From: Telopea speciosissima
Lineage: Eukaryota; Streptophyta; Magnoliopsida; Proteales; Proteaceae
Length of the DNA: 64,000 nucleotides
Reading direction: 5' to 3'
Assembly: GCF_018873765.1 (NCBI RefSeq)
Contig: NC_057917.1
Span: 53,003,464-53,067,463 of the forward strand
Shown: piece by piece, positions 26,084 through 63,150 of the stretch
How the letters are laid out: each line of letters opens with the position of its first letter
Position numbering within the stretch: the stretch's first letter is position 1
Position numbers and translations under genes: made by a program
The notes under the pieces: generated by a model
The model's database searches: none
Seen by the model: only the letters and a program-made list of their open reading frames with translations
Told to the model about the DNA's origin: nothing

Positions 26084-26086
26084 GTT

Positions 26087-26105: not shown

Positions 26106-26154
26106 GATACAATTCTCAAAGCCTTAGACTCTCTATTTGACTGAACTTGAGATC

Positions 26155-28175: not shown

Positions 28176-28774
28176 ATGGCTGTGGCTGAAGTCCCTGAGA
28201 AGAAAGCGTGCACTGAGTCCGTCATCACATTCTCAGACAAGGACATGGAGGGGCTGAGCTGGCCACACGACGATGTTGTCGTGGTTCAGGCAGTTATAGC
28301 CAATAGACCAGTCCACAGGATACTGGTGGATACGGGGGCATCTGTAGACATGCATCCTACGATGCATACTTGTAGTTTGGGTTTGAGCCGGGCACTTTGA
28401 AGCCCGAGTCAGCACCCTTATACGGATTTTTAGGAGCACTTGCCCCGATCGAGGGGTCAGTAGAGCTCTTACTGACGGTGGGAACAACACCATGCCAAAA
28501 GACCATAAAAGTCAATTTCATGGTCGTTCGAGTAGCCACCGCCTACAATGCCATCCTGGGCAGACCAAGCTTGAATGAGCTGGGCGCAGTAGTTTCCACC
28601 AAACACCTGAAAGTCAAGTTTTCTACCGCTGACGGAGTGGGAGAATGCCAAACGGAGCAAAAGAAAGCCCAGGAGTGCCACGTTGCATTCTTGAAAGGCA
28701 TCAAGGGCAACTGTAGAGGAACGGCCTATCAGGTGGAGGTCATGGATAACCGCGAAGATGATAAGCGCTATTAG
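28176..28774 (+). pseudogene. Gypsy aspartic protease
   Basis: The active-site strand RILVDTGASVDM lies near 28317-28350; after a frame change close to 28395 the C-terminal part continues ATAYNAILGRPSLNELGAVV and STKHLKVKFST. The DTGA triplet is intact, but the frameshift breaks the polyprotein. It cleaves the gag-pol polyprotein in active elements. The solo LTR starts 22 bp beyond the end of this open stretch. Confidence 0.88.
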
Positions 28775-28795
28775 AGGGGTGAGCCAGTAGAGGAG

Positions 28796-30519: not shown

Positions 30520-30524
30520 AGGAG

Positions 30525-32253
30525 CTCGTGGAGGTCTCGTTGGATGAATAGAACCCTATAAGGACTGTGAAAATCGGGTCCTCACTAAGTAAAGAAGAAG
30601 CGAGGGAGCTCACCACATTCCTACAGAAGAATAAGGACGTGTGCCTGGTCAGCAACTGACATGCCAGGCATACCCCGTCATATTACCGAGCACGCTCTGC
30701 ACGTGGATCCCAACAAGAAGCCAGTGCAGCAGAAAAGGAGGATGTTCGCGCCAGAACGACAGGCCGCGATGAAAAGAGAAATTGAGAAATTGAAGGCATT
30801 CGGCTTTATTAGAGAAGAACAATTTCCCACCTGGCTCGTAAATGTGGTAATGGTTCCCAAGCCAAATGGGAAATGGAGGATGTGCGTGGACTGCACTGAC
30901 CTCAATAAGGCGTGCCCCAAAGATGAATATCCATTGCCAAGGATCGATTTGTTGATAGATGCAACGACGAGACACGAGAGGCTGAGCTTTATGGATGCAT
31001 ATTCCGGGTACAACCAGATCCTGATGAAGGAAGGAGACGAGTTGTACATAGCATTTCGGACTGACCAAGAGAACTTCTGCTACCTGGTGATGTCGTTCAA
31101 GCTAAAGAACACAGGAGCGAGTTACCAAAGAATGGTGAATAAGATCTTCAAGGCCCAGATAGGCAGAAACACGGAGGTATACATGGATGATATGCTAGTA
31201 AAGAGCATCAAAGCCCGGGATCACCTGGCCGATCTGGATGAGGCATTCCAAGTATTGCGTGCTCATCAGATGAAGTTAAATCCGACCAAGTGCACCTTCG
31301 GGGTCAACTCGGGTAAATTCCTGGGTTACATGGTGTCCCAAAGAGGAATCGAGGCCAACCCAGTGAAGATCAAGGCTATACAGGAGATGAGCCCACCCAG
31401 GACGGTTCGTGAGGTACAAAGGTTGAACGGAAGGATCGCGGCACTAGCATGATTCGTGTCTCGCTCGGGAGATAAATGCCTACCTTTCTTCAAAACCTTG
31501 AAGAACCTGAAGGATGTGAAGGGCTTCGCGTGGACAGAAGAATGTCAAAAAGCTTTCGAAGACCTCAAAGCTTACCTCACCAACCCGTCGCTCCTGACAC
31601 GTCCAGTATCGGAAAAAGAACTGCTCCTATACCTGGCGACGTCACCAGTAGCCGTAAGCGCTACCCAGGTGAGAGAGGAAGACGAAGTTCAAAAACCCGT
31701 ATACTATGTCAGCCACGTCCTACTAGATGTAGAAACTCGCTACCCCAAGATCGAGAAGCTAGCATTCGCACTGGTGAAAGTAGCCCAAAAGCTAAAGCCG
31801 TACTTCCAAGCCTATCTAATAGCGGACATGACTGACCAACCCTTAAAAAAGGTACTCCATAAGCCTGATATATCTGGGAGATTAACGGCCTGGGCAGTGG
31901 AGCTGAGCGAATATCAGATCAAGTATAAGCCCAGAATAGCTATCAAGGGACAAGCCCTAGCAGACTTTGTGGTTGAATGCACGCAGAATGAGAACGAGCA
32001 AGAACGGGAGGACATGACAGAAGCAGAGCCTAGCCCGGAGTCGTCCTGGACTATGTTTGTAGATGGGTCAAGCAACGCAGAGGTCAGGGGAGCTGGCTTC
32101 ATCCTAACAAGCCCAGAAGGCTTCAAGATACAGTTCGCACTATGGCCGAGCTTCCCTGCCTCGAATAATGAGGCCGAGTACGAAGCATTGATTGCAGGAC
32201 TGAGGACTACCAGGGCCATACAAGTCAAAAGGCTGACCGTACGGGCTGACTAA
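30525..32253 (+). pseudogene. Gypsy reverse transcriptase and RNase H
   Basis: Open from 30661 to 31452 and, after a single TGA, from 31456 to 32253. Reverse transcriptase motifs in order: [42 protein letters not shown], the catalytic [10 protein letters not shown], and [13 protein letters not shown]. The connection to RNase H contains VYYVSHVLLDVETRYPKIEK. RNase H shows MFVDGSSN, NEAEYEALIAGL and TVRAD followed by a stop. Several stops fall where CGA or CAA would be expected (TGA at 31450, TAA at 32251), the pattern produced by deamination of methylated cytosine. Catalytic residues are kept, so the damage is mainly nonsense changes. Confidence 0.93.
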
Positions 32254-32975
32254 TAACTGATCGTGAATCAGGTCAGCGGAGACTATGAGGCCAAGGACGA
32301 TCGAATGGCAGCATATGTTAAAGAAGCCAAGAAGTTAGTAGGCTTATTCGAGACGTTCAAGATATATAGGGTGCCATGCAGCGAGAACGAGAAAGCAGAT
32401 GCGCTCTCTCGACTATCCAAGAAAAAGTTAGCCCAGCTCGATGGCTCAGTATATATTGAGTAGCTCGATGCACCCGCCCACATAGTTTGAGAGGTCATGC
32501 AGGCCGAGATCGAGCCCAGCTGGATGGACCCAATTATCGTGTACTTACGAGATGACGTCTTACTAGAAGACAAAGTCGAAGCCCGTAAGGTTCGAGGTTG
32601 AGCAGCACAGTACATGATGATAGAGAACGAGCTGTACAAAAGGTCAGTTTCGGGTCCGTTGCTGAAATGTTTGACCCCCACAAATGCTCTGAACGCCTTG
32701 GCCGAAGTGCATCAAGGCATATGTGGCAATCATATGGGGGGAAGGCATCTGGCGGACAAAATACTGAGAGTAGGGCTCTACTGGCCCAACATGCAAAAGG
32801 AGGCGATTCAGTACGTAAGAAGATGCGAGCCGTGCCAAAAGTTCACGGATGTACCACGACAACCCGCTACAAAACTAACTTCCATACTTAGTCCAATCCC
32901 CTTCGCCATGTGGGGGATGGATATACTGGGCAACTTCACCCTAGCCTCAAGGGGAAGAAAATATCAGCTGTTCCT
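32254..32975 (+). pseudogene. Gypsy RNase H end and truncated integrase
   Basis: After the stop at 32251 the frame continues through ADALSRLSKKKLAQLDGS to an integrase N-terminal HHCC finger (VHQGICGNHMGG, then RRCEPCQKF) and the start of the catalytic core (MWGMDILGNF, first aspartate). Similarity ends at about 32970 after KYQLFLQ. The second aspartate, the glutamate and the C-terminal domain are absent. At this point the sequence passes directly into the 3' part of an antisense ORF, so a deletion has joined the two. Confidence 0.88.
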
Positions 32976-34811
32976 CCAGCTCCTCGATGCTCTTGGTAAA
33001 AGACTTGACCGCATCCTCGTGGCCCTTGGCCGCCTCAGTCATGGTAGAAATGGTGGTCCCAACGACTATCGTCTGCTCTTCTGCGGCCACTCTCATCTTT
33101 TTCTCCTCCTCATAAGAGGCAGACAGGCTTGCTACATGCCACCGTAACTCGCTTGCTCCCCGAGTAACCTATAGAGAACAGAACGATATCAGAAGTGCCT
33201 TGAGCAAACTAATGAAGGAATCATCTTGGCCTGAGGCTTACCCTGGCGAAATCCAGCACAAAAGAATTAAGGAGTTCGTCATCCGACAGAGCATAAAAAT
33301 CATCGACGTCCCCTGGAGGCCCGTGATCCATCAATTCCCCAGTAACACGAGGAGAATGAAGGGAGGAATCGCCCTCATAAACCTCCCACTAAAATTGGAG
33401 GCACTTCTTCCCCTTGGGAGGAGGCTGAACACCCGTCTCACCGTTGCCAGATTTTCCCTTGGTGAGGTCTTGGGGAGCTATCCTTGAGGCTCTTGAGACC
33501 TGGACAGTCTCCTCCAGAGATCCAACACTTCGCGTAACTCTTTTCGAGGAAGGGTCAGAGCTCGCCACATCTTCGCGCGTCCTCTTCTCAGGGACCTTAG
33601 GCGGAAGAGCCTTACTAGACTTCTCTACCCGCTCCATCCCCTTGGGGGAGGCTTCCTGCTTCTTCTGAAAATTATTGGAGGACGGCGAACCTCCTATTGA
33701 AATGCCAGGGAGCGAAGGGCGAGATGAATGCCTAGATTGCCTCTCCAAGGCTTTATGTCTGGCCGATACAACGTCTCCACGAAGCTCGTTGGCATCAGGC
33801 TCATAGTCCATTGAAAGAAAGATAAATTCAAGTTAGAAACAACTCGTGGCTGTTAAGGAAACAAGTTCTTTGGGGTAGGGACTCACCCCGCGCTGAGCTC
33901 AGTCCATGTTCAACCAGCAGACCCTCGTTTGCCAGACCGCACACGTCGAAGGCCGTGCCCTATACCGCAATCTCTAGAGACCGCTGATCGTATGAGCTCA
34001 GCATGGGGAGCTGGTTCACTGATCGAAGTCGTACAAGTCTCCACTCCGCTCTAAAGGGATTGCCCTCGATACGTGCAAAGAAAAAACGATCCTTCCACTT
34101 CTTCGCTGATTCGGGCATATAGGAAACAAAAGCCTTAGGTCTATATGACCTCATTGTACTACGTAGGGCCAGGTAGAACCACTCACCGCCGGTCTGCTTC
34201 AGGTGGTAGTAGTAAAGAAAAAGTGCCCAGGAGGCCTCACGGCCAAGCTGGGCAAAGTACAGGTAGAAGCCAAGGAGGTGCTTCCAGGCATTCACCACTA
34301 ACCGGCCTGGAGAAATCTGAAAGCGGTCTAACACTTCCAGAATAAAGCGATGGACGGGGAAGTGTAAGCTGCATTGAAAGGCAACCTTGTACAAGCATAC
34401 AGTATTCGGCCGTGGGGTGTTCGCCCTCTGCTCTTGTAGAAACCCATGTCTCCACCCATGGGGGAAAGTTGTACTGGGTGCAAAGAGCAGCTAGGGACTC
34501 CGCAGTCATGGTACTCTTAAAGGCTACCACACTGGTAGGTCTCACTAGGACCTCCTCCTCTTCATCAACGCCAGAGGCACCGTCGTCGTCGACAGTACGC
34601 TTTGCGAAAGTCTCATCCGACACTGGCCCATCGTTGGACCGAGCGGCGGAGCCCCGGGTCAGACGTTGGGCCCAGGCAGCAAACCTCTTGGACCCAAAGA
34701 GTATAGATCACCCCTCTTGGGTCCCCTCGAAACTCACTTCGGGTCAGAACCCCCACTCGATTCGGCAGCATTGCCAGAACCCCTGGCAGACTCCGATGAA
34801 GGAGAAGACAT
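32965..34811 (-). pseudogene. antisense ORF, plant gypsy-type transposon domain
   Basis: Minus-strand coding sequence between integrase and the 3' LTR. Possible first exon 34811-34737 (MSSPSSESARGSGNAAES) ends at a GTGAGT donor. 34623-33960 carries CTQYNFPPWVETWVS, then in another frame FPVHRFILEVLDRFQISPGR, NAWKHLLGFYLYFAQLGREA, GGEWFYLALRS, KKWKDRFFFARIE. This matches the family annotated as putative plant transposon protein, gypsy type (PF04195-like). 33811-33389 is a charged segment, and 33120-32965 is heptad-rich (EEQTIVVGTTISTMTEAA, KSFTKSIEELEEQ), a coiled coil. One frameshift near 34380 breaks it. Antisense extra ORFs at this site are known in Tat-lineage plant elements; their role is not settled. 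Confidence 0.78.
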
Positions 34812-35411
34812 GACTAAAGAGTAACTTACTAATAAAGGGCGGTAGAGATCGAGAGCAGAGGATGCAATAAGATCGAAGCACCTGACGAGTGTTCGTGAAG
34901 GAGGAACTCCACCAGAAGAGTACGAGGATCCTTGGACGCGATGATCGTCAGAATAAACGCAGCGGCGACAACAGGAAGCACCAAGAGTAAAAATCCCCAA
35001 ATGAACGAAAGACAGTAAAAGATTGCTGTAAAAAAGTGAAGTTCCAGTTTATAAAGAAGAAGAAATGCTTCCCAATCCAATGGCCCAGGGACGCGACCCC
35101 TCGAATGGCTGAAGGTAGCCAACGTTTGGGATGGCTCGAGGTAATTAAAGCTCAATCCACATGGCTGAAACACAATGGGGGGGCTTAGCGTGAAGAGGAT
35201 CAACCGATGGTAGGTCTAGCCCAAAGATCATAATGCCTATGGCCACGTGTCAATACAAAGAAGGAACGTCGAGCATCGCCTCGAATCGAGACACCTCTAG
35301 GGTTTCAGACATGTGTCAAAAAGCCGCTGGAGCGACAAATCACACTTAGCTGCCTAATTATCGAAACATGTGCGCCAGGGTAATTTTCATAAAGCAAAAT
35401 AAACCTGGACG

Positions 35412-35432
35412 TTCAGGGGAGTGGGGGGCTCG
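35412..35432 (+). other. Gypsy polypurine tract
   Basis: Purine-rich sequence including GGGGAGTGGGGGG lies immediately before the 3' LTR at 35433, the expected site for priming plus-strand DNA synthesis. Confidence 0.75.
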
Positions 35433-35954
35433 TGTTGGGATATGGAAACGGGCTCTATAAGAACGAGCTATTGTGGTCATCAAGCCAAGCCAGGGCCTCG
35501 AGCTCGTCGAATTGTGAACACGCACCCCGCCTTGCTCTGGGGGCGCGTAACTCGTCATCTTGGAATAACACTAAGAAAGAAGAGAATAACCCCTACGGCT
35601 TACATAGGGCACCATGAGCCTATCATGGACCAACAGGGTCTGAGACTTTCGCCCACATCACGCCTAATCAGACGCGTGGGAAGCAACGGATAAACGTTAT
35701 CTCCAAATTACACTCTCCAACGGTCTCACTCCATTCAGGAATTCCAGCTTTCCAATTCAAGCATAACTCAAACTCTCAACCAGCATAAATACGGTAGGTA
35801 ACACACACCTAACCCATCTGAACACTCATTGAATGGACTATTGCTCAGAGATCTAACTTAACCATCGGAGTGAGATCACTGGCGACGCCCGGTACTCTCT
35901 GCTAATCTCTGTCTTGCAGGAAGAACTCGCTCTAGTAGGATTTCTGATGCAACA
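35433..35954 (+). mobile_element. 3' LTR of the Gypsy element
   Basis: 522 bp, same length and ends as the 5' LTR, followed by the GACGG duplication. Differences from the 5' copy are mainly transitions. Confidence 0.95.
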
Positions 35955-41110: not shown

Positions 41111-41469
41111 CCAGTTTTGTGTTGCTCTTTCGAGTGCGTTTTCAGGCGAGAAACTATCGAATTCCAGAGGGATTTGGGGTGAAAGACGAACGTGGACACT
41201 CAAATTGCTAGCACCACTATAGAACATAAGGACAATTTGTCACTTCCCACCTTTTCTCTCTCTCTCTCTCTCTCTCACGGTGTCACTCCCTTTTTTGGGC
41301 TGATTGCCATTACTGTAGAGGTCAATCTCCTTCTGAAGAATAAAAGAAAAAAGACGAAACTGGAAGAGATTAATAATATAGGAAAACAGAGAGTAGAAAG
41401 ATAGCATTGTGAGGAAGAAAGAAAAAAAAATGATGGGTTTTTGTTTGGGATTTTTTATGATTTTGTCTG

Positions 41470-41712
41470 TATAGAGAGAAAGACCCAGCGCAATATTCAG
41501 CTACCTTTCTCGGCCATTATCACATGTGTTATCACATGTGATACATATCTTGGATACATATAGTAAACCCAATCGGTTGGGCACTTATTATGGTTATGCA
41601 ATATTCTCTGTAATTTCTAATATTGTCTACCAAGTTTAGCTTGGATTGTATCTCATGTATTTATATCCCCTTTGGGGCAAATCAATGAATTAAGGATCAA
41701 TTTATACTAATA
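41470..41712 (+). mobile_element. 5' LTR of Copia element
   Basis: Starts TATAGAGAGAAAGACCC (or two bases earlier with TG) and ends TTTATACTAATA. Contains the inverted motif ATCACATGTGTTATCACATG and a TATTTATA-type box near 41657. Confidence 0.92.
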
Positions 41713-41724
41713 TGGTATCAAGAG
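41713..41724 (+). other. Copia primer-binding site
   Basis: TGGTATCAAGAG directly follows the LTR and matches the methionine-tRNA primer site with one changed position relative to the usual TGGTATCAGAGC. Confidence 0.9.
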
Positions 41725-41799
41725 AACTACAAGCTCCAACGAGCAATCTCTAGTCCTTTTTTTTTTTTTTTTCTTTCTATCTTCTTCTTCATTTTCCCA

Positions 41800-44026
41800 A
41801 TGGCCGGCAGCACTGGCTCCTCCAACAAGGACATCTGGGATACATTGCAGACTGCATTCTCCTCTCCCTCTGAGAGCATATTAATGGCCCTAAACATGGC
41901 TCTCATGGATTTAGAGCAAAAACCAGATGAAGCAGTGTCACTTTTCTTACAGAGAGCCAAGTCCATTGCCGATTGTAGACACTGAATTTTGTCACCCCCC
42001 GGCGATGATGACAACAGGACATGAACAGACATCGGTATCTCTCTCAAGAAGGACTCTTGTCCCTACATATAAACCAAATCATCCTAACATCCCTAAAATG
42101 ACTTATAAGACCCTTTTATCAAATACTGAAGGAGGTACTGCTCACCCTCCCCCACCACGACGGTCCCGCTAGCCGGTTAGCGGGCCATGGGGGTCGAGGG
42201 GGGCAGGCAGCCCCCCTGCGGGGGGTGTAGGAGGCGGAGCCCCCCGACAGGAAATTTCCTGAAGAGTCAGAAGGGAGCCAAAAACCCAAAAAATAAGGAA
42301 AAATGGCACTGCGCTCCCACGGCGCGTGGACTCTTCCCACGGCACCGTGGGCGCATTCCCACGACACTATGGGGATGTGTACTGGATTTCCACGGCGCCA
42401 TGAGGGGGTGTGACATCAGCCTGCTGATGTCACCCACGGCGTTGTGGAAAAGTCCCCCACGGTGCCGTGGAGGACTTATCTAGCTAGGAGAGAGAGGGGA
42501 CCCCTCCCTATAAATAGGAGGGTCTTCCCCCCTCATTTCTCAAGCTTTTCTCGGGTAAGGAGACCCCCCAGGGCTCGTTTTGCCCCCCTTTTCACCCTTT
42601 TTTCCTCCGTCTTTCCCTCTTGAGCATGTGAGTGAGTGGAGTTCTTCGACTTGGGTAGATCCTTCGATTACCCATCCAAGCATAGAGCGATTCTGCTCTT
42701 GGGTATTGTTATCCCGTCAGTGTACGGATAACGAAAAAACCCCCTTCACAGCCGTTATTCTGTCTGTATACAGATAACGAGAATCTCTTATATAGTCGTT
42801 ACTCTGCCCGAAGTCTGAGTGACAAAACTCATCTCGTATAGCCTCATTCTGTCCGACAAGAGAGAGACAAGCCGATCGTCCGTCTCCACCTGAGCCGTGG
42901 GACATCACATATTTCGCCCTCGGTGCGCTTTCATTTATTTCTTGCATTTCTAGACAGGTATCTGTCTCTTTCCCTTTCATTATTTTTGGCATAATGTAGA
43001 CAACTAAAGCAACTTGTTTAGTGTACATAATAAATGATTTTCTCTTCCTTTGTCAAGATTAGTGTATCATAACTTAGCCTTACATGTTAGTATAAGATAT
43101 ATTATCAAGGGAGAATATTCAAAAACCATCATCTAGTAGAAAGACCAGTTTATCCGGGCGAGGTGGGTGCCTAACACCTTCCCACCCTCGTAACCTGACT
43201 ACTTACCCTGAATCTCTGACCAGACCATATGGAATCACGTAGCCCTTTCCTCTAACCCCGGATGGGGCTACACCCATTGGGTCCTAGGCCCTAATCCTAG
43301 GTGTCGACTCCATTCCTTTATAAAGCATGATCCCAATCCCCATGATGATATATCGGAACGATACGTCGTTATTCATCGAAGCCAATGTTTGTCGCCATAA
43401 GGCTGAGGAACCCTCGTCCCGAGGACCACGGTACTTACACCGATGAACTGGTTGCTGCTGGTCACTCTCTGCGACCTGGTGCCTTCAATCTCCATGTTTA
43501 CTGTTGATTAAAATCTGAATTCAAGTCCATGGTTTCATCACTTCTTACTAGAACCGATCCTATCTGTTATGATGATTTACATGCTATGTTGTTAAGCCAT
43601 GAGTTCTTACATGGCTCTTCTTTGAAAAAGCTTGCTTTGACCAAGGATGTTGCTCCTATCTCAACGATGACCGCAAATAATGTCCAGCGATCTAATTCCT
43701 CTCCCTCCTCTGGCTCCCCTCCACCTAGCCGTGGTGGTCGTGGAGGTCGGTGGGGACGTGGGGGTCAAAATGCTGGGCGTGGCCGTGGTTCACCCACTGG
43801 TTATGGCAGGTTTTGGTGTACCATATGCAGGCATACAAACCATTCCATAGACGGATGCTTCTACCGACCACAACAGGCCTTTCCACCCAATCCTGCATAC
43901 CCTTTTGCCACTCCAGCCCCAACGGCCCATCATACCTACCCAAATCCGACAGCCCATTACCCCACCTATCCACATCCGAATCCACCCATCTTACCTACTC
44001 CTCATCCATCCACAACCTTACCTTGA
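41800..44026 (+). pseudogene. Copia gag split by solo LTR
   Basis: The first part, 41800-41973, reads WDTLQTAFSSPSESILMALN, MDLEQKPDEAVSLFLQRAKS. It is interrupted by the solo LTR at 41974 and resumes at 43441 with DELVAAGHSLRPGAFNLHV, a TGA, then MVSSLLTRTDPICYDDLH, LLSHEFLHGSSLKKLAL, a glycine/arginine-rich RNA-binding run (GGRGGRWGRGG) and a knuckle CTICRHTNHSIDGC. The start is only about 90 bp from the primer site and lacks the usual N-terminal 80-100 residues, so gag was shortened before or besides the LTR insertion. The TGA near 43507 is where CGA or GGA would be expected. Confidence 0.88.
41974..43439 (+). mobile_element. solo LTR nested in Copia gag
   Basis: 1466 bp starting TGTAGACACTGAATTTTGTC and ending GGTACTTACA, flanked by CCGAT at 41969-41973 and 43440-43444. 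It is GC-rich in its first 550 bp, with several variants of CCCACGGCGCCGTGG forming short palindromes at 42318-42470, and a TATAAATAGG promoter box at about 42511. No coding or second LTR. Its removal rejoins the gag reading frame exactly. The internal palindromes are distinctive for this LTR family. Confidence 0.92.
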
Positions 44027-44467
44027 TATCCCGATACTGGTGCATCCCATCATGTGACTCCAGATCTCGGTGCACTTTCTCAATATGATGAGTACAACGG
44101 TATGGATCAATTGCATGTGGGTAATGGTAAGGGGTTACATATATCACATATTGGTTCTTCATCTTTTCCATCATTATCTTCCCGTGCCTTTCATTTACAT
44201 AATATTCTCCATGTACCATCCATTTCTAAATCATTGTTATCTGTTCAAAAATTTACACACGATAATAATGTATTCTTCGAATTTCACCCGTCTCACTTTC
44301 TTGTGAAGGATTAGGTAACCAAGGAAATTCTGCTGTCCGGACCGAGTAAGGACGGCCTTTATCAGCTTCACCCATCTGTTCCACCTTCTGCACATTCTGC
44401 TATTCGGGGTTCTCTTATTCTGTGGCATAACCGTCTTGGACATCCAAATTAGCAACTTTTACAACTT
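44027..44467 (+). pseudogene. Copia protease and pre-integrase region
   Basis: PDTGASHHVTPDLGAL at about 44033 is the Copia aspartic protease active site; it continues LHVGNGKGLHISHIGSSSF and LHNILHVPSISKSLLSVQKF. The GAG-pre-integrase segment follows (LWHNRLGHPN, about 44421-44450). Stops at about 44025, 44313 and 44451 break the frame. Confidence 0.88.
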
Positions 44468-47107
44468 ATGCTTCGTCAAAATAATTTAGATTTTAATATT
44501 TCTGGTTCTAAATCTCTTTGTAAGGCTTGCCAACTTGGCAAAGCCAGTAGACTTTCTTTTCCATTATCTAGTAGTCGAAGTACATTCCCTTTGGATCTAA
44601 TTTTCACAGATGTTTGGGGACCATCACCCACCCCATCTATATCCAACCACCGATACGATGTGATTTTCGTGGATGACAACACCAAATTCATTTGGTTCTA
44701 CCCTCTCATCTGTAAATCTGATGTTTTAGAAATTTTCCCAAAATTTCAGGCCATGGTTGAATGTTTATTTGGGAGAAAAATAAAAGCTTTACAATTTGAC
44801 TGGGGTGGGGAATTTCGGTCTCTACCTACCTATTTTGCCAAGCTTGGGATAATTCATAGAATTTTTGCTCCACATACACATGAGCAGCAGGGTTCGATTG
44901 AGCGTTGGCATAGACACATTGTTGAAATCGGCCTCACCCTGCTTGCTCATGGGTCTGTGGCTCGTAAATATTGGCATTTCGCCTTCGAAACAGCTGTTTT
45001 CTTAATCAATAGAATGCCATCCTCTGTTTCACTTGGTATTTTCCCGTTTCAACTAGTTTTTCACAAATCCCCTGACTATGGGTTCTTCAAGGTCTTTGGA
45101 TGCCTATGCTTTCACTACTTAAGGCCATACAATCGTCATAAGATGGATTACCGGTCCAATGAATGCATTTTCCTTGGTTATAGCCCTTCTCATCTGGGCT
45201 ATAGATGTCTTGACCTCACCACTCACAAAATCATCATTGCTCGGCATGTTCGCTTTGATGAAAACAATTTTCCCTTTTCGAGTATCACCGTACCATCTAC
45301 CATTACATCCACACCAAGCCAGTCCATACTGTGGGCTTCATCATCCCTTACACCACCTAGTATGAGGGACCAACATTCCCATTTCCCACCGCCATCACCA
45401 ATGGATCCACCATCCTTGAGTCCTACACCCACACCGATTCCATATTATGCAGCCACACCCACACCAACCCAAGCATCTTCGGGTCTTCACAGCCCAAGCC
45501 CGAGTCCGACCACATCTCCAACATCTCCACCCATCCGAACCAGACCCATTCATGAGCTATATCAAACCCCACCACCAAACCCGCCACCTGCACCCTCCTT
45601 ACATCCAATGCGCCTGCGGTCTCACCAAAACCAGCCACAGGCCAACACTTCTAATGCAGTTATTACTGAGCCTTCTTCTTTCTCGCAGGCTAATAAGGTT
45701 CCAGAATGGAGGGCTGCGATGACAAATGAATTTAATGCCCTATTGAGAAATGGCACATGGTCTCTAGTTCCACGCACTGCTGCAATGAACCTAATTGGTT
45801 ATAAATGGGTATTTCGCATTAAAAGGAAAGCTGATGGGTCTTTAGAGCGCTATAAAGCCCGTTTGGTGGCAAAGGGGTTCCACCAACAACATGGTTTGGA
45901 CTATAGTGAAACTTTTAGCCCAGTTGTCAAGCCAACTACCATCAGATGTGTACTATCTATAGCAGTAACCAGTAACTGGCCGATCAGACAGCTTGATGTC
46001 CATAATGCGTTTCTACATGGTAGCTTGGATGAAGAGGTGTTTATGGTGCAACCACAGGGCTTTGTCGATCCATCACACCCAGACTATGTATGTAAACTCC
46101 ATCGCTCACTCTATGGCCTGAAGCAGGCACCCCGGGCTTGGTTTTATAGGCTTTTAGAATTTTTGATTGGATTGGGTTTTATTGGATCACGAACGGACAC
46201 GTCTCTTTTCATCCGTCGATCTAGAAGCAAAGTTTGCTACATCCTAATCTATGTTGATGATATCATAGTTACTGGCAGCGACTCAGTTATGATCACTTTC
46301 TTGCTACACCTGCTGGCTAGTGAATTCTCTATCAAGGATCTCGGTGATCTCCACTTCTTTCTTGGTATAGAGGTAAATCGGCATCCAAAGGGCATTTTAT
46401 TGTCTCAAAATAGATATATTTTGGATCTGGTGAATCGAACGGGTATGACAGATTGTAAACCCGTGAAAACTCCTATGGCTACCACCTTCAAACTCAGTGA
46501 CTCAAGGGGTGCACCCCTAGCCGACCCAACCAAGTATCGGTCAGTTGTGGGTGCACTACAATATATTACATTAACCCGTCCTGATGTTTCATTTGCGGTA
46601 AATCGTGCGTGTCAATTCATGCATGCACCGACCGAGGAGAATTGGCAGCTTGCCAAGAGAATAATTCGGTATTTAAAGAGTACACAATCAATAGGTCTTC
46701 TAATTGAGAGATCTCCAGCCCATTCCCAACAGGCCTTCACCGATGCAGACTGGGCCGGTGATGGGTCTAACCGCAAATCAACTGGTGGTTTTGCAATTTT
46801 TCTGGGCCAAAATCTTATTTCATGGGTTTCTCGAAAACAAAGAACGGTGGCTAGATCATGTACTGAGGCCGAGTACAAGGCTCTCACAGATGCTTCTGCG
46901 GAGCTGATTTGGCTTGAATCACTGCTTATGGAACTGGGTCACACACTATCTGGGCCACCAATTCTGTGGTGTGATAATCTTGGGGCCACGTATTTGTCGG
47001 CTAATCCTGTGTTCCACGCCCGTACCAAACACGTGGAGGTAGATTTTCACTTTGTTCGTGATCAGGTGGCTAAGAAACAACTTCAAGTTCAGTTTATTTC
47101 ATCATAA
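44468..47107 (+). pseudogene. Copia pol: integrase, RT, RNase H
   Basis: A single 879-codon open stretch. Residues about 15-35: [14 protein letters not shown], end of the integrase finger. Integrase core: [10 protein letters not shown] (first D), FDWGGEF (second D), [14 protein letters not shown] (E). A proline/serine-rich linker follows (about 280-400). Reverse transcriptase: [48 protein letters not shown], and the catalytic [11 protein letters not shown]. RNase [58 protein letters not shown]. It is stopped at 47105 by a TAA, but the remaining residues (DQLADTLTKPL to LPDSPP) follow in frame up to the polypurine tract. All catalytic residues look intact; only the upstream breaks make the element inactive alone. 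Confidence 0.95.
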
Positions 47108-47202
47108 GATCAGCTGGCAGACACATTAACCAAGCCCTTGGCGCATTCCCGTTTTGAAACGTTAAGGGACAAGCTGAAGATTCGATTGCCTGATTCTCCA
47201 CC

Positions 47203-47213
47203 TTGAGGGGGTG
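47203..47213 (+). other. Copia polypurine tract
   Basis: TTGAGGGGGTG immediately before the 3' LTR, overlapping the natural pol stop codon TGA. Confidence 0.85.
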
Positions 47214-47467
47214 TATAGAGAGAAAGACCCAGCGCAATATTCAGTTACCTTTCTCGGCCATTATCACATGTGTTATCACATGTGATACATATCTTGGATA
47301 CATATAGTAAACCCAATCGGTTCGGCACTTATTATGGTTATGCAATATTCTCTGTAATATTTTTGTAATCTCAAATATTGTCTACCAAGTTTAGCTTGGA
47401 TTGTATCTCATGCATTTATATCCCCTTTGGGGCAAATCAATGAATTAAGGATCAATTTACACCAATA
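47214..47467 (+). mobile_element. 3' LTR of Copia element
   Basis: 254 bp, matching the 5' LTR with a few substitutions and an extra 11 bp near 47355-47380, ending TTTACACCAATA followed by GTCTG. Confidence 0.92.
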
Positions 47468-48192: not shown

Positions 48193-48592
48193 AGGAGTGA
48201 GAGAGGAGAGAGAATGTTAGGTTAGGTTAGGATTGGGTTAGGTTAAGCTAGGTTGGAAATTCTCACCCGTTAGATCGCTAGTGCCACATGTCACGATTCT
48301 AAGGGGGTACTTACAAGAACTTACAGTTTTGGGAACAAAAAATCCCTTTATTTTTCTTTAACCACAATAACACCCCATCCACTAGTAATGATGCCCATCC
48401 ATCCTTCACCGTGGCTAGAAGAAAACTTGATTCAAGAGCAAATGTCGATCTATAAGAAGCTAACTTGGCTAGGAATCCTTCATATTCATTGAAGAATGCT
48501 TACTAGGGACTGGGAGTGGAGAGTATAGAGACCAAGGTTGCAACAGTGTTGGGTTGAGCCGGGTTTTTTAAACCCCAACCCAACCCTGAGTC

Positions 48593-49547
48593 TAGGGGTG
48601 TCAATTCCAGGCCTAACCGAGCCCGCCCGGTTAAAGCCCGATCCGGACCGGATCGATTCTTAAATGTGTCGGGCTTAAGCCCGACACGTTTAATAATAGG
48701 GCGGCCCTGGTGTGGGGTCCTAGCCTGTCGGGCGCCCGATCGGACCGACCTTTTTCAAGCCCGACCTAGCCCGCCCAGCTACAACCCGACCTAGCCCGAC
48801 CCTTTAAGCAAACCACCCTCCATTAATCCATTTAGCCCACTTGATAACTCTCTCTCTTTTCCTATTTAACTCCTTAAAATGATTAGCCCATTAAGCCCAA
48901 ATTAATGGGCAATTCAATTGATGGATTTCCTTAACTCAAAAAAATGTTTATATTCTTCTCCATTAAGTTTCTCATTTCATAGAATCAGAACCAGACATAT
49001 ACAAAAAGGGCTGGGGGTGTTCTTGCTCCAAAGAGAAAACAAATAGCATGACGAACCCAGTACCGTCAATGATGATTGAGCTGATAAACATAAGCACTGC
49101 ATAAATTTGAGTTAGTTATAATTACAAAAAGAAACAAATCAGTAAATAAAAACTAATAAACATAAGTTCTTCCTTTTTTTTGGTAGAAACTAATAAACAT
49201 AAGTTCAGGAAAAAATTATGGTTTGAAAAATTGGGTTTGGATTTGGGACTTGAATGTGTTTTGGTGGAAACCCATTTCTTTTCTCTTTATTTTTTCAAGT
49301 AGGAATTTAATTCTGTAAAGGCCCGATTAAGAATCGGGTAAGGCCCGATGAAGAGTTAAACAGGCCCACAACCCGGTTACCCGATTAAAGCCCAATTTTA
49401 GTACCTGATTAAAGACCGACACCGATCGAACCCCGATCGAGCCCGACATGGCCCGGACCGAATACTTAAATGGTCGGACACGGTGCAGCCTGCACAATTG
49501 GTGAGGCCCGGCTAGGCCCGACCGAGCCCGACCGGTTGACACCCCTA
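48593..49547. mobile_element. hAT-like non-autonomous element, 955 bp
   Basis: Perfect 12-bp terminal inverted repeats TAGGGGTGTCAA and TTGACACCCCTA, flanked by identical 8-bp duplications CCTGAGTC at 48585-48592 and 49548-49555. Both ends carry dense GCCCGA, CCCGACC and CCGGTT subterminal words. No transposase. It is inserted into an older repeat of the TAGGGGTGCAAG family (right end at about 49893). Confidence 0.92.
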
Positions 49548-49555
49548 CCTGAGTC

Positions 49556-53247: not shown

Positions 53248-55743
53248 TTAAGAACCAAAACCAAGTAATGGAGCAATCTGCAATAGAGGCTTCAACGTAT
53301 CTGGGTTAAATTTCCTAGCGAAAAGGAAACATATCGATGTGGTATTCCCATTGTACATACAATTGCTTCCAAAACGTATGCCATTGAGAAACTCTACTGA
53401 AATATCTCTCCATCCAATTTTCCTTGGGTGTGGACTTGGCCTCGACCAATCTACCCAAGTCACGCTTCTATTTGAGTTCAGTTCTGGAGAAATTATGTTA
53501 ACTAATGTTGGTATATAGTGTTCGTCATTGTAGCATGCAGGTTGACAGTAATTTCTGAAGACTGGGTAGTACTTCTGGTCTGATATGATCTTAATTGCGA
53601 TATCACGATGAACCTCGAACCATTGAGACCCCTTACGCCATTCGGAGATCGATACTACAGGAAACATTTGCGGGTTGTAGCGACCACGGCCTGCCTTCCT
53701 TGGGTCATCGAAAGAACTAAGGAAACTGAGTTTGGAGTTAATGATGTAGTTATAGACTGTTGTAAAGTTAAACAAAGGAATGCATGCCTCTGAGAGTAAC
53801 ACAAATCTTTGGTTAGAGGGCTGGTCGAGGAGTGCACTGGCTAGAAGGCGCCTTTCTGCGTCGATCATTGTCATCCTTCCCCATTCGGCTCTCTGCAACA
53901 TATATGTAACTCAACCGTCTATCATCATTGTTAAGGAATTCACATTTTTTTTGTACCCCTGTTCCATCTACCACTTACCACCTACCACATATTTCAAATT
54001 CGGTTCTCCTCCAGCTGTGGCGGGAGCTGAAGGGTCAAAAAATAAGGGGGGGTTTAGTCATTTTACAAGTGGGACCCAAATGGATCCCCTGTTTTTGTTG
54101 GGTTGGACCCTCTAGCTCCCGCCACAGCTAGAGCCTGAAAGAGAGCCGGATCACTTGAAATGAACAAACCCCACACTGATTTTGCTGGGGTGAATCCTCC
54201 AGCTCCCGCTATATTTATATTTTACTGTATAGACACTCAACACTAGTATAAATAAAAAAAGTAAAAATGAAAAAAAAAAAAAAAAAAAACCCTCTTGATC
54301 TTAGCTTCAAGTTGCAGGTAAGGCGGGTTTTGGTTATGGAAGGAGCTGACACCGAAGAATCAGGGTGAGCTTGGTCTGTTTGTTTGATGGGTGTTGAAAA
54401 CCCAAATGTGAATGAGAAAAACGCACGACTTACGCCACAGACCGCGTGAATGGAAACGCAAATGTGTCTGAGAGCACCCAAAATGCTCGTGAGTGAGAAG
54501 CCACCTTCCCTTAATTGGTTGCTTCCAACTTGTAATTAAACATGTAGACTGGCCGGGTTTCACTCCGTTCCATGTTACAAATTTTCATTTCCAGGGGTAA
54601 AGTGAGATATATTATTGACAATCGAGATCTTCTATGGCGCGCCTGTCCGTAGTGGTGAGGCCAACGCACTGATAAGGCGATGCGCAATGATCGCCTTACC
54701 CTTACCCGAACGCCTTGCCCGAGTGGAGGTAAGGCGATCATTGCACGTCGCCTCATTTGTGAGCCGCTCTCGCCACGGGGAAAAGCTGGTTGTCACATTA
54801 GACGTAATCTTAGACGTTGAAATAGAATCCTACTCCAATTAAAAATAGATATTTTGGAAACCCATTAGGGAAAGGGATTATTCCATTTTGGCGCTTGGCA
54901 TTACCGGCAGCAAGAAAGGTTTTAGAAGGAATATTTGGGTATTATTTTGGGTCACAACTTCACAACCCATCTCACACCCTCCATTGGCGTTGGGACTTGG
55001 GACTTCATGACCTCTTTTTAAGGAATTTTTTATTAAGTACAGTTGAACGGATCCAAAACCATTTTATCCCAAAAAGGCCAAAAAAAAAAGAAGGAAAGTC
55101 AAGCAAAGGAACTGACCTGACTGGGAATCCTTCTCCGGTAGAAAACAGAATTTTCAGGCACTGCCGATTCATTGAAGGAAGGATCAGGATGGACGTAAAT
55201 GGAGTATAGCCCATCATAACCTTTGAAGAACTTCTCCCACAAGGGTGCAAATGGAAGTGGTCCTTTTGTCAAGAACATGAAAGCAACCTTGGGCTTCTTC
55301 TCCTCATGAGGGAGAACCTCATCAATCCTTCCCAACAATGCCTTGGCAAACAACTCCTTGTCATCCATGTTGTGCATCAGAGATGTATTTTCATCTCTTG
55401 CCTTGACCACACTTCCCCTTTGCATTTCTATTGACAACGCCACTGGTGGTGGTGGCGAAAATGATGGCGGCGGTGGTGGTGGTGACGACGGAAATGGTGG
55501 TGGTGGTGAAAATGATGGTGGTGGTGGTGGTGGTGGTGGTGATGATGTTGATGGGAGCGAAGTAGACGTAGGATTTAAGAAGGCTTCAGGATTGAATAAG
55601 AAGCTTTTGAGATAAAAGCTAGCTATGATTCCAAGAGACAAACCAATAACAAAGAAAAGGCAATGAATAACACGGTTTAACTGTAGATGGGTATTGAGGA
55701 TCTTTGAAGTGTTGAAGGATTGTTGATGGTTTTCATTTCTCAT
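53248..55743 (-). CDS. GT14 glycosyltransferase, BC10-like (copy 2)
   Basis: Second paralogue, 423 residues. Exon 1 is 55743-55117 (ends CAGTCAG|GTCAGT), exon 2 is 53892-53248 (preceded by ATGTTGCAG). The start is the first methionine (MRNENHQQSF). Membrane anchor is at about 25-45. The stem (about 64-105) is extremely proline-rich, with runs of six to eight prolines and SFSPPPP blocks like an extensin; at DNA level this is a GGT/GGC-type repeat at 55440-55550. The Branch domain starts at about 152: [111 protein letters not shown]. All conserved positions are kept, so it is probably functional. Intron 1.22 kb carries two foldback MITEs. Located 2.8 kb from copy 3, same strand: tandem duplication. 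Confidence 0.93.
53990..54165. repeat. foldback MITE in GT14 copy 2 intron
   Basis: Inverted arms centred on CAGCTGTGGCGGGAGCTGAA (about 54012-54031) and TAGCTCCCGCCACAGCTAGA (54112-54131); pairing extends outward through ATTTCAAATTCGG and its counterpart. Target duplication not clear. Confidence 0.7.
54646..54778. repeat. foldback MITE in GT14 copy 2 intron
   Basis: Arms GCGCAATGATCGCCTTACC and GGTAAGGCGATCATTGCAC around a short loop with CTTGCCCGAG. The arm core GGTAAGGCG(A/G)TC is shared with the element at 62963-63150, so they belong to one family. Confidence 0.72.
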
Positions 55744-58528: not shown

Positions 58529-59455
58529 TTAAGGATCAAAACCAAGCATTGTTGGAGCAATCCTTAACAATGGCTCCAGAGTGCTGGGATGAAATTTCCT
58601 TGCAAAGAGGAAGCAGATTGAAGTAGTATAATTACCATTGTAAGAACAATTGAAACCACTCCGAATCCGGTTCAACAATGACTCGGAAACATCTCTTCGG
58701 ACGAATCTTTTTGGGTGCGAACCACCAGTTGTCCAATCCACCCAAGTGAGGCTTCTATTCGAGTTCAGCTCCGGGTGGAGCTTAGTCACTAGGGTTGGCA
58801 AGTAATGTTCATCCATATAACATGGAGGCCTGCAATTAAAGAAACCGAAACCGGCCTTTTAAAATCGAATTGAATCGAACGGTTAATAATTATTCGGTTA
58901 GGGTGTTAAACTCAAATAACCGGTTCAGTTTTAACCAAGAAACCGATTATTAATCGATTTCGATTTGAGAAATTGAGAAGGTTTAATAATCGGTTCGATT
59001 TTAATTTAAGTGATTAAACCAAAACTGAACTGATTTACACCCTTACCTGCAATGTTCTCGGAAGACCGGGTAATACTTTTGGTCAGATATTATCTTAATT
59101 GCGAGCTTCCGGTTCACTTCAAACCACTGGGACCCTTTGCGCCAATCGGACAACGATACAATTGGCCACATCCTCTTGTTGTATCGGCCACGCCCCATGG
59201 GGCGTGGGTCGTCGAATGAGCCAAGGAAGCTGTGATTGGAGTTGATGAGATAGTTGTAGACAGTAGTGAAGTTGAAGACAGGAATGCATGTCTCGGAGAG
59301 TAACACAAATCTCTCATTAGAGAAATCGAGGAGTGCATTGGCTAATAGCCGCCTCTCTGCATCTATCATTGTTGCTGTTCCCCATTGGACTTGCTGTTAC
59401 AAGAACACAAGAAACACATAATACTTGATCAACATATCCTGATCTCCATCACCAT

Positions 59456-59489
<34 letters not shown>

Positions 59490-62400
59490 GGATATGGTTT
59501 TATTAGATGTGTCATCGATATACTATGGTACCTAAGACTTACGGGAGACCAGATCATCAGCGGGCCAGGACCCCCTGCCGTACTGCAGGGTATGCGGTGC
59601 ACTTCCTGCGGCACAGCAGAGGTCCCGTGGTACACATGGCACACATGGCCTCTGCTGGGCAGTAGGATGTGCATCGCACACCCAACAGTAAATTAGAGGA
59701 TTTTCATTTGATCAACAGCTGACTCAGCTTAACCTTTTTTAGCCCAATGATCTGGTTTTCGCTCTGACAGTACTTGTAGAAAACAACACCTATAACGATG
59801 CAGAAAAGAATGGAAATCACACAATCAAACATAAGGATTTATGTGGCTTGACGAGATTGTCTACGTCCACGATGAGATGAGATCTGCTAAGTCACTATTA
59901 ATTGAGAATAGGGTTAGAGTCGGTCATCCTCACACCTCTCTCAGATTGCATTACAAAGAAAGAATCATCGCTACAAATTTATAGCGAAATCCTATACAGA
60001 AATTTTAACGAAATACTCATATATACCTTAAAAGAATTTCCTCGAAGCCTAAGGCCTGCTAACGGATCTTCGAAATCAACCCACAAATTCAAGCGATGGA
60101 ATACAAGATATCATACCCCCAACAGTACTATATATGTTTTGGTTATAAAATTGGGCCCATGCTGAGTCAAGTTAGGTTGGTCGGTAGATAGCTAGCCCTA
60201 GAAGAAATCGTGGGGTAAAAAAGATTGAGAAAAGTTTCTCTAAGCTTACCTCGAGTGTACACTAGCAAGCACCCTCTCTCTTTCTCTCTCCTTTTCACAT
60301 GAAATGACCTCCTTGTCTCTTTATGTATGAAACTGTTTTGTCGCGCTTCATTGGGGTGCGCTCCTCTATGCTAGTTGCTCAAAGAACCCTCTCCCCAAAA
60401 GATTTTATTGTGAAAGTCATGCGGTAAAAAAGATTGGGAAAAGTTTCTCTAAGCCGATCTTGAGTGTACAGTAGCTAGCACCCTTTGTCTATCTCTCTCC
60501 TCTTCACATGAAATGACCTCTTTGTCTCTTTATGTATGAAACTATTTCATCGTTTTTTTATTGGTGTGCTCTTCTGTACTGCATACTCAAAGAACCGACC
60601 CTCTTCCAAAATTAAAGATTTTATTTTGAAAGTAGGCTAAGTAGCCCACACATGAAAGAGGAAAAATTTGGTGGTTGAGCACATAAAATGCAACACATCC
60701 TATATGTAGTGCAAAAGATCAATAGAGTTAGTATTGAATGGATCGACTTAAAAGAATCTCACTACCAAAAATCAACACGAACTTGATCAGTTTTGAAACA
60801 ATATTCATGGAAATGATCTGGGTATGAACTTTGATCAAATTTGGAGGGTTACTTATTATCCCTCTGTGGTAAGAAAGGGAACGTTTAAAGAAGGAATTAA
60901 TATGGACAAACCAGTTCAAAGAAACTTTTTGCTAAAGTCTAAAGGATCATTTATGATTCAAACACCCTTTACCACTAAATTACAAATTTATTTATCTAAA
61001 GCCTAAACTGGGCTAACTTATAGATCCGAGGGCCACCCTAACCTAATGGATCATCTTAACTCCTGTGAGAGAGAGAGAGAGAGAGAGAGACCATTATTAC
61101 CATTTTCTCTTTTTGCAAAAAGAAGAAAAAACCTCCAAGAAAGAGACCATTATTACCATTTTTTTCTTTTTCAAAAAGAAGAAAAAACCTCTTTGAAAGA
61201 GAATTTTTATCCTAGATAGGTGAATTAATTTGGTTGCTACAATTTCTTCCTGATAATACTCTGCAGTCTGTTCTCTTGAATTGCAATTATGTAACCTACA
61301 AATGTATCTCACACTTTCCTATCATACTCTCAAAATGCTTCCCACATGAGGCCTAGGTAGAATGCAACGGTTGGACATGGATCATGATTCATGTGGGCCA
61401 CCTCAAGTAATTAAGTGGGACCCGAACTTTTCTCAGTTCAAAAAATATCTACATTTAGCCCATGCATTTATTACCTTGCTCATTTTCCAGCACTCTCCCA
61501 TGAACCATAGATTTAGGTATCGGTATCATATATGGTCGATATGTATTGGTATTGGTGACAACCTTATCGATACTAGTACAATCGATCAATATGATAAAAA
61601 AAAAATGGCGATGAATTTTCATTTTCTCAAGTGCGATGCATTGCGTAATACACCTTTAAAGTGCATCAAATGGTGACCAGGGCGCTTGAAAATAATGCAT
61701 TTTTTAATATTCACTAGTAACTAGGGGATGGGAGTCCTTTAACAGTATTTAATGTTTTGGAGAGAATTTATAAAATGTGTTCCTATGAAACAAAAAGAAG
61801 ATATTTTCATGAAAACCTATCATTTGAAAGATTTACTGTTTGGTAGATAGTTCTGAAAGTGTGGGGAATATCATATCAATTTTTGAGGTTTAGGGAAGAA
61901 AAAACTAACCTGACTTGGTATCCTACGCTTGAAAAACACAGAAGATTCAGATGGTTCCTCGTTAAAACCAGGTGGGCAATGGAGGTAAATGGAGAACAAC
62001 CCATCATGTCCTTTGAAGAACCTCTCCCAAATTGGTTGCAGTGGGAGTCTCCCCCTGGCCAAGAACATGAAAGCCACCTTGGGAGTCCGGTTGAAGGGGT
62101 AGTCTTCGACAAGGGGCGACATAGATGCCAGCCACATGAGCTCTTTGTCTCTCATCGAGTGCCATAGCTGCTGCTCTTTAGGGGCTACCCAGTCTGCCAG
62201 TCCCTTCATTGTTGTCCTTGTCCTTCTTGTTGTCATGGTAGAATTACTATTCAATGAAGAAGAATAGTTACATAAAGGAGTAGCAGTCAATGAAGTAGTA
62301 CGAGGCCAAGAAGTAGTAGTAGTAGAAGATGGAGAGAACTGAGGAAAGTAGAAATCCTGGGAGAGAACAAATTTCTTGACATGATCAGAAATGAACATTC

Positions 62401-62560
62401 CCATGAAGAGAACAAAGAAGGACATGGAAAAGAAGAAGATTATAGTGGTTGTGATCTGAAAGGAAAAGCCCCCATCTCTACCTTCTCTTCTGGCTCTCGA
62501 GGAAGCAGACATCTCCTTGGGCTGCTGCTGCTGCTGCTGCTGCTTCTCATTCTCAATCAT
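58529..62560 (-). CDS. GT14 glycosyltransferase, BC10-like (copy 3)
   Basis: Third paralogue, 432 residues after splicing three exons: 62560-61910 (ends AGTCAG|GTTAGT), 59393-59047 (preceded by CTTGTAACAG) and 58829-58529. The N-terminus has a run of eight glutamines and basic residues, then a membrane anchor at about 36-57. The stem is serine/threonine-rich, not proline-rich. The Branch domain starts at about 161: [78 protein letters not shown], then across the extra junction HCRPPCYMDEHYLPTLV, TWVDWTTGGSHP, ARKFHPSTL. The paralogues are continuous here ([24 protein letters not shown]). Without removal of the second intron, codon 333 is followed at once by TAA and about 100 residues, including the DEHY motif, would be lost. 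Intron 1 is 2.5 kb. Confidence 0.92.
58830..59046 (-). other. MITE-derived novel intron of GT14 copy 3
   Basis: 217-nt phase-2 intron in codon 333. Read on the minus strand the donor is CAG|GTAAGG and the acceptor TTTCTTTAATTGCAG|G. The donor G is the last base of one target-site copy and TAAGG is the transposon end; the whole acceptor (ATTGCAG) is the other target-site copy. Removal restores the uninterrupted ancestral coding sequence to the base. Splicing is inferred from sequence, not observed. Confidence 0.85.
58837..59045. mobile_element. hAT-like MITE, 209 bp, inside GT14 exon
   Basis: Flanked by perfect 8-bp duplications CCTGCAAT at 58829-58836 and 59046-59053. Ends TAAAGAAACCG and TTTACACCCTTA (a weak inverted repeat, TAAGGGTGT at the right end read inward). 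The inside is composed of ACCGGTT, ACCGATTATTAA and TCGGTT words on both strands, like the MITE at 12644. No coding capacity. Confidence 0.92.
59459..59485. repeat. (CT)n microsatellite
   Basis: Perfect CT run of about 13 units in intron 1 of GT14 copy 3, 60 bp upstream of the exon 2 acceptor when read on the coding strand. Confidence 0.95.
59588..59685. repeat. foldback repeat in GT14 copy 3 intron
   Basis: Imperfect arms GGGTATGCGGTGCACTTCCT and its partner near 59660-59685, meeting around GGCACAGCAGAGG / CCTCTGCTGGGC. Likely a short MITE; boundaries not set. Confidence 0.6.
59815..60123 (+). repeat. dispersed repeat, copy B
   Basis: Second copy of the 56640-56938 repeat: CACAATCAAACATAAGGATT, GATTGTCTACGTCCACGATG, CCTCACACCTCTCTCAGATT, GGAATACAAGATATCATACC, ending in C-rich CCCCC. 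Same orientation as copy A, roughly 75 percent similar by eye. Confidence 0.65.
60205..60605 (+). repeat. tandem duplication, about 190 bp unit
   Basis: Unit 1 (about 60205-60400) and unit 2 (about 60412-60605) share GGTAAAAAAGATTG, GAAAAGTTTCTCTAAGC, TCACATGAAATGACCT, TTGTCTCTTTATGTATGAAA and TCAAAGAACC. The second half also resembles 22725-22830 and 39595-39690, so the unit belongs to a dispersed family that was duplicated here. Confidence 0.75.
61067..61200. repeat. (GA)n run and short direct repeat
   Basis: A GA run at 61067-61090 is followed by two near-identical 45-60 bp copies of GAGACCATTATTACCATTTT...AAAAAGAAGAAAAAACCTC (from 61087 and 61144). A recent local duplication in the GT14 copy 3 intron. 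Confidence 0.8.
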
Positions 62561-62962: not shown

Positions 62963-63150
62963 GCAAAGATCCTGTGCATCCGGGCAGTCGGACTGCATGT
63001 GCAGCGCCAAACTCAAGGCACTGTGCTTTGACCGCCTTACCTTGCTCGGGCAAGGCACTTGGGCAAGGGTAAGGCGGTCAAAACACGCCGCCTTGAGTTT
63101 GGCGCTGCACATGCAGCCCGACTGCCCGGATGCACAGGAGCCAGGTCGGT
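62963..63150. mobile_element. Mutator-like foldback MITE, 188 bp
   Basis: Near-perfect arms of about 70 bp: left from 62971 (CCTGTGCATCCGGGCAGTCG ... GACCGCCTTACC), right 63067-63138 (GGTAAGGCGGTC ... CGGATGCACAGG), loop about 25 bp. Flanked by 9-bp duplications CCTCACTCC at 62954-62962 and 63151-63159. Pairing does not reach the very ends of the insert, so the exact termini are inferred from the duplication. Confidence 0.8.

Follow-up and report, generated by a model that had tools for sequence, protein, structure and literature searches.

The window analysed here, a stretch of 64,000 nucleotides from the genome of Telopea speciosissima (waratah), carries three copies of a GT14/BC10-like glycosyltransferase gene, all on the minus strand. 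Copy 1 lies at 20954-23933 (exons 23286-23933 and 20954-21598) and copy 2 at 53248-55743 (exons 55117-55743 and 53248-53892); the latter is the best paralogue match to copy 3 in the genome, at 72%. The gene model of copy 3 comprises exon 1 at 61910-62560, with the ATG at 62560, exon 2 at 59047-59393, which ends in CGAGAACATTGCAG at a putative new 5' splice site, and exon 3 at 58529-58829, which runs through the stop codon. The spliced model (62560-61910, 59393-59047, 58829-58529) has 432 amino acids. An NCBI protein named 'glycosyltransferase BC10-like [Telopea speciosissima]' (P0002, 432 amino acids) is 100% identical to it over 432/432 residues, with exon 1 corresponding to residues 1-217. 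Hence, the NCBI annotation uses exactly this splice. NCBI proteins with spliced junctions may be homology-guided predictions, and no second Telopea-named protein was detected among the best 120 of the 3453 matches to the copy 3 query, some of which are nameless. When the GT14 protein was compared with solved structures, a usable match was not found.

Repeats and other elements are also present in the window. Intron 1 of copy 3 harbors a 139-nt tandem duplication (60205-60552, 87%), and an inverted repeat with 72-nt arms, 93% complementary and separated by a 26-nt spacer, is found just upstream of the gene (62970-63139). A Copia-like retroelement occupies 41468-47467; its end repeat pairs are 99% and 95% alike, and an RVT_2 frame lies at 44468-47107. 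Retroelement frames (RVT_1, 30661-31452) between 300-nt repeats that are 94% alike, at 25561-35731, probably represent a gypsy-like element.

The insert in GT14 copy 3

Exons 2 and 3 of copy 3 are separated by a 209-bp insert (58837-59045), flanked by perfect 8-bp target site duplications (TSDs) that read CCTGCAAT on the forward strand (58829-58836 and 59046-59053) and ATTGCAGG on the coding strand. An earlier note on this DNA had reported an insert of this size with perfect duplications; the same coordinates were recovered, and the observation of a precise insert is confirmed. On the coding (minus) strand, the junctions are AACATTGCAG|GTAAGGGTG...TTTCTTTAATTGCAG|GCCTCC, and the boundaries CAG|GTAAGG and ATTGCAG|G given in the earlier note were found as described. 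The note had also proposed that the 5' splice site is composite and that the 3' splice site comes from the second target copy, and the sequence bears out both proposals. The GT donor takes its G from the last base of the first target copy (59046-59053), while the second copy (58829-58836) provides CAG as acceptor together with the base that opens exon 3. The acceptor, TTGCAG|G, is preceded by a T-rich stretch.

The putative new intron (58830-59046, minus strand, 217 nt, GTAAGG...TTGCAG) is the same that P0002 implies. It is made of the element and one TSD copy, with nothing else, and its AT content is 68%, compared with 52% and 56% in the exons. Two further claims were upheld: cutting 217 nt restores the codon, as the spliced model that matches the 432-residue NCBI protein at 100% attests, and in the unspliced sequence the codon that follows exon 2 is TAA.

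Ten spaced 8-bp repeat pairs were detected in the exon region, and only one of the ten has hAT-like ends on both sides (YARNG is the hAT end consensus); 1000 shuffles of the local sequence produced no such pair. In the window as a whole, three 8-bp pairs with YARNG ends were found; 100 shuffles gave 0.47 on average and at most 3.

The insert, on the minus strand, starts with TAAGGGTGTAAATCAGTTCAGTT and has TAAAGAAACCG at the opposite end. An imperfect palindrome (TAAGGGTG...CACCCTAA) takes up roughly its first 148 nt, and the remainder is a tail of 61 nt. At the extreme ends, 4/5 bases agree (TAAGG/TAAAG); the TAAGG end is multicopy, and the second end is atypical. The predicted fold is stronger than those of 200/200 dinucleotide shuffles (z -4.1), and simple self-complementarity, which is less striking, reaches 31 (mean 19.0 and maximum 40 in 200 shuffles). 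Stops are present in all three coding-strand frames. The label 'MITE' used in the earlier note can be kept in part: the insert is short and non-coding, with a hAT-type end that is multicopy and an 8-bp TSD, but a simple MITE with long terminal inverted repeats, a structure that we considered, is not supported by a palindrome with a tail and ends matched at 4/5 bases. A genome search that skipped very common words did not reveal any close sibling; the best other matches were 81-88% over 49-68 nt.

Exon 3 of copy 3 was compared with its Macadamia counterpart, to which it is identical at 82/99 residues. Polarization of the changes with six outgroups assigned 4 to the Telopea side and 10 to the Macadamia side, with 3 unpolarized. 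Among 37 sites that are invariant in 10 outgroups, 34 are kept in copy 3 and 3 are changed, and the end branch of copy 3 in the tree is short (0.067). This pattern fits a working gene, and a very recent insertion would also fit. A rival reading is that the insertion is a recent disruption with poor splicing, that copy 3 is null or encodes a truncated protein (the stop lies one codon in), and that the NCBI protein is driven by homology. The perfect TSD of copy 3 agrees with such an event, and a recently killed gene would look equally intact. However, the consensus-like splice sites, the AT-rich insert and the lack of an excess of Telopea-side amino acid changes in exon 3 argue against a disruption, which we view as unlikely.

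The insertion codon in paralogues and homologues

Copies 1 and 2 read through the insertion codon in exons 20954-21598 and 53248-53892, respectively, in agreement with the earlier note. The codon was also uninterrupted in all close GT14 paralogue loci of the Telopea genome that were read at the DNA level (10/10), one of which (C1:4189535) has a stop at another place. Protein search alone indicates that three remoter single-exon GT14 loci and a weak, stop-containing match (C10, 36%) span the codon.

In the protein, the junction falls between Cys332 and Arg333. An alignment of 12 homologues is ungapped at this position apart from four extra residues in Tetracentron, and the spacing of the motifs that flank the junction is unchanged in 108 of 110 homologues (120 matches were listed, 10 of them without a motif). 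The extra residues of the Tetracentron GT14 protein (P0006), GPQC, are located exactly at the Telopea insertion codon, and may stem from an old footprint, from a duplication or from an intron that was annotated wrongly. Another GT14 copy, at C11:55110885-55117531 (L021/L038), matches residues 208-370, with a stop-containing match to residues 356-430 about 6 kb further on; unlike copy 3, it is probably decayed.

Phylogenetic analysis groups copy 3 with Macadamia (100/100), and copies 1 and 2 belong to a different clade, outside the group made of copy 3, Macadamia, Tetracentron and others. The window paralogues are therefore old: the empty codon is visible in them, but they give no date for the insertion, and paralogue dating was rejected. 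Thus, the view that this is a datable case with paralogous empty sites holds for the empty codon, present in both paralogues, and fails for the dating.

Related elements in other genes

The end pattern TAAGGGTGTNAATCNGTTCNGTT has 143 exact matches in the 823 Mb genome, the insert included, and 0 in the control. The first 30 places listed, that is, the insert and 29 other copies, were read. An exact 8-bp TSD was found in 9 of the 29, a TSD with one mismatch in 3, and none in 17. The 12 TSD-bearing copies have symmetrical ends, with the TSD beside a ACACCCTTA-type end, and their lengths range from 312 to 973 bp. By these signatures, the element group is classified as hAT-type. A scan of viral contigs for the exact end gave 0 matches.

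The window contains a second element that shares the TAAGGGTGTNAATCNGTTCAGTT end, at 12643-12960. A local tandem duplication is found there (11649-11990 and 12350-13022): the latter arm carries the element and the former is an empty site. The duplicated bases visible at this element are about ACTTA, not 8 bp. A further hAT-type element, 955 bp long, is located at 48585-49555 and shows a perfect TSD, CCTGAGTC, and TAGGGGTGTCAA at both ends.

A scan for AGG targets with AGGTARGGGTGTNAATC yielded 77 exact matches (control, 0), and about 230 bases upstream were read for the 76 others than copy 3. A frame open for at least 70 codons up to the junction was detected in 7/76 upstream flanks, and three of the seven are host genes: an AMP-binding acyl-CoA ligase, recognized by Pfam, a CYP86A1-like P450 and a UDP-glycosyltransferase (UGT). 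The fragments of the latter two were below the Pfam cut-off; the P450 was identified by protein search, and the UGT by alignment with solved UGTs. For the other four open flanks, Pfam gave either nothing or weak families at most (zinc knuckle, YqgG), and they were not counted. The earlier note had suggested a search for the same MITE family in other coding exons with a CAGG-TAAGG arrangement; three further genes carry apparently related elements at such sites.

The three loci are C11:42425818-42427972, which holds the ligase, C2:16271400-16273900 and C2:14233200-14235700. The junction in all three is CAG|GTAAGGGTGT...CAG|G, and in each of them TA is followed by another copy of the target that has diverged slightly. 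The ligase element has 503 bp (TSD CTACCAGG/CAATCAGG), the P450 element 518 bp (CTTGCAGG/CTTTCAGG) and the UGT element 734 bp (ATTACAGG/TTTACAGG); within the fetched stretches, the spliced frames have 420, 496 and 313 amino acids, respectively. NCBI Telopea proteins are 100% identical over 100% of the ligase frame (P0241) and of the P450 frame (P0121). The junction is ungapped in 9/9 ligase and 8/8 P450 proteins chosen for alignment, and the UGT frame is ungapped at the junction against the two best solved UGTs.

The ligase gene, on C11, is split by the element alone (1-271 / 267-548), and in its paralogues at 79, 71, 56 and 53% one frame stays open across at least residues 1-540, which argues for intron gain in an otherwise intronless gene. 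In a remoter ligase paralogue (C7:53429740-53432021, 45-52%), a split is found near residue 256, some 15 residues away from the position of the MITE intron in the C11 gene. Intron gain is recognized by an empty site in relatives, and such sites are found in the 10/10 GT14 paralogue loci and in four ligase paralogues. These loci also bear on the idea that an older spliceosomal intron existed at the GT14 codon and that a MITE landed inside, replacing or masking it. Many plant MITEs sit within introns, a circumstance that lends this idea some plausibility. However, the copy 3 intron holds only the element and one TSD copy, none of the ten close GT14 paralogue loci has an intron there, and the four ligase paralogues are single open frames; an older intron is thus highly improbable.

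The TSD copies differ at 2, 1 and 1 of 8 positions in ligase, P450 and UGT, respectively. This divergence suggests that the frames stayed open while the TSDs diverged, and the occurrence of the same arrangement in three other genes with diverged TSD copies further weighs against recent disruption as the explanation for copy 3.

In copy 3, ligase, P450 and UGT, the introns have 217, 511, 526 and 742 nt, each being one nucleotide longer than a multiple of 3, and without splicing the first stop would be found after 1, 13, 17 and 3 codons. Their AT contents are 68, 75, 74 and 59%, that of UGT being only slightly above its flanks. Branch-point-like motifs at the usual distances are weak in the four introns. 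The donor side reads TAAGGGTGTNAATC in all four genes and the target always ends in CAGG, and the elements are mutually diverged (61-91% over 23-275 nt). As judged from sequence, the splice sites come from the element and/or the TSD with the mRNA unchanged in 4/4 genes, and NCBI proteins are identical in the 3/3 looked up. By anatomy, copy 3 would be one of at least four such cases in the Telopea genome.

A wider census of flanks was also carried out. A second scan, with CAGGTARGGGTGTNAA, gave 153 matches (control, 3); 100 were listed, 90 of them new, and 60 upstream flanks were read, of which 43 show CAG|GTAAGG and 17 CAG|GTAGGG. No host exon was recognized among these 60 flanks, 10 of which were scanned with Pfam and the rest judged by open frame and by eye; in the first set, likewise, 10 fragments were scanned with Pfam and the others examined by eye. 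Because an exon was recognized only if an open frame reached the junction, in most cases by eye, short exons may be missed. Among the first 77 copies, exonic cases were 4/12 at CAG|GTAAGG and 0/65 elsewhere (P 0.0004). With all 137 flanks, copy 3 included, the figures are 4/55 and 0/82 (hypergeometric P 0.024, or 0.060 without copy 3). The concentration of exonic cases at CAG|GTAAGG, weakened once the 60 flanks were added, is not relied on.

In a control of 29 copies with unselected flanks, 4/58 strand-flanks were open for at least 70 codons, none of them recognized by eye as a host gene; this control is too small for a conclusion. If coding exons are assumed to make up about 1/20 of the genome, chance alone should produce a handful of exonic insertions in sense orientation, so that the counts give no sign of targeting. 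What matters is that such insertions can persist.

Two duplicate loci, L208 and L209 (C5:43726100 and C5:57251900), carry the same 1126-bp element with a perfect TSD, ATGCCAGG, and CAG|GTAAGG within an unassigned frame. The pair is a possible fifth exonic case and was left out of the count. A third stretch, L210, was not convincing as an exonic case.

Proposed mechanism and comparison with known systems

A transposon insertion turned into a precise intron is supported as the best reading of the case described in the earlier note, in view of the NCBI protein with an identical splice, the multicopy group with hAT-type ends and the three further genes with the same anatomy. We consider it very probable that a non-autonomous hAT-type element inserted at ATTGCAGG in a GT14/BC10-like coding exon and is removed as a precise new intron. 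After landing at this target, the TAAGG of the element would become positions +2 to +6 of the donor, the last G of the target position +1, and the preceding CAG the end of the exon. Because the element begins with TAAGG, the duplicated G and the first element bases form a strong donor, CAG|GTAAGG. The duplicated target copy, ending in TTGCAG|G after a T-rich stretch, would serve as acceptor, and a cut at both sites would remove the element and exactly one target copy. If the spliceosome removes the four elements in this manner, as we infer, the insertions would be tolerated and the genes would still make the ancestral protein. Since TAAGG looks like positions +2 to +6 of a donor, sense-exon insertions at AGG targets would be among the survivable ones. 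The rule we propose is that a target with AGG at its end obtains a full 5' splice site from the TAAGG end and that the duplicated target gives the 3' site.

Simulation of insertions into copy 3 yielded a codon-restoring GT-AG cut at 15/637 target positions, 6 of the composite type. The actual insertion site is the only CAGG in 648 nt, and three AAGG sites equal it in donor score with an approximate matrix. With the same approximate matrix, the donor at the copy 3 target scores 7.1 with the TAAGG end and 4.0 with the TAAAG end, the observed orientation being the better one.

A broader hypothesis is that the Telopea hAT MITE group acts as a low-frequency introner and that the chemistry of its insertion has precise intron gain as an inherent by-product: every sense-strand AGG target joined to a TAAGG end would provide a ready 5' splice site, and the 8-bp duplication the 3' site. 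We give this hypothesis just short of an even chance. If it is correct, surveys that look for highly similar introns would miss the group, as its copies are old and diverged. A rival view, compatible with the explanation favored for the single copy 3 insert, is that the four exonic cases are independent transposon accidents filtered by survivorship, and that the group is no more intron-prone than any element starting with T. Only 4 clear cases were found among 137 AGG-flanked copies with flanks read, copy 3 included, the four elements are diverged, and a GT arises from any T-starting element at an AGG target. However, TAAGGGTGTNAATC at the donor side and the CAGG target end are common to all four, and donor scores at one and the same target differ between TAAGG and TAAAG (7.1 and 4.0, approximate matrix). 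The rival view retains a sizeable probability, somewhat below one half.

With four cases in one plant genome, each with an identifiable element, target and exact cut, the mechanism is testable in a species that has a reference genome and sequenced relatives, and the sequence rule, a NNNNNAGG target plus a TAAGG end, can be searched in any plant genome.

Plant hAT MITEs typically have an 8-bp TSD and TAAGGGTGTCAA...TTGACACCCTTA-type ends, which are also present in group members with both ends found; the window insert differs from them in having one degenerate end and a 61-nt tail past the inner palindrome. In maize, Ds alleles are mutants. A Ds-derived intron of maize was reportedly described by Giroux et al. 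in 1994. The likeness to Ds is that a hAT element in a plant gene supplies splice sites and that the duplication has 8 bp. The donors of Ds1 are found at distances of 12, 22 or 33 bp from its terminus, and element sequence therefore stays in the mRNA (PMC5432752). In contrast, the Telopea donor lies at the very junction, and removal would be exact.

The earlier note had considered a datable case with paralogous empty sites rare in a flowering plant; transposon-made introns as such have precedents in plants, since the review by Yenerall and Zhou (2012) already includes cases in Zea and Oryza (PMC3443670). Searches of the open-licence literature that did not pair Proteaceae with intron gain revealed no account of hAT MITEs that repeatedly gave rise to introns in a plant. 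In the AGGT proto-splice-site model of transposon intron gain, as set out in that review, the main form needs an AGGT target (PMC3443670). The Telopea cases are alike in that both junctions derive from the duplicated target without any change to the coding sequence, but their target has AGG at its end and the element contributes the T.

The origin of spliceosomal introns is a long-standing question. In the survey by Gozashti et al. (2022), introners are DNA transposons of the non-autonomous kind, flanked by TSDs, whose insertion generates introns and leaves the mRNA unchanged; their splice sites are shared between element and TSD, some being partly recruited, and families that give 5 to >2000 introns per genome are described in many eukaryotes and in no land plant (PMC9860276). 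Compared with such families, Telopea offers four diverged cases, fewer than the smallest family of five, in an angiosperm, with a hAT-type element and an 8-bp TSD. The resemblance lies in the anatomy: as in introners, element and TSD share the splice sites, and the coding sequence would be restored.
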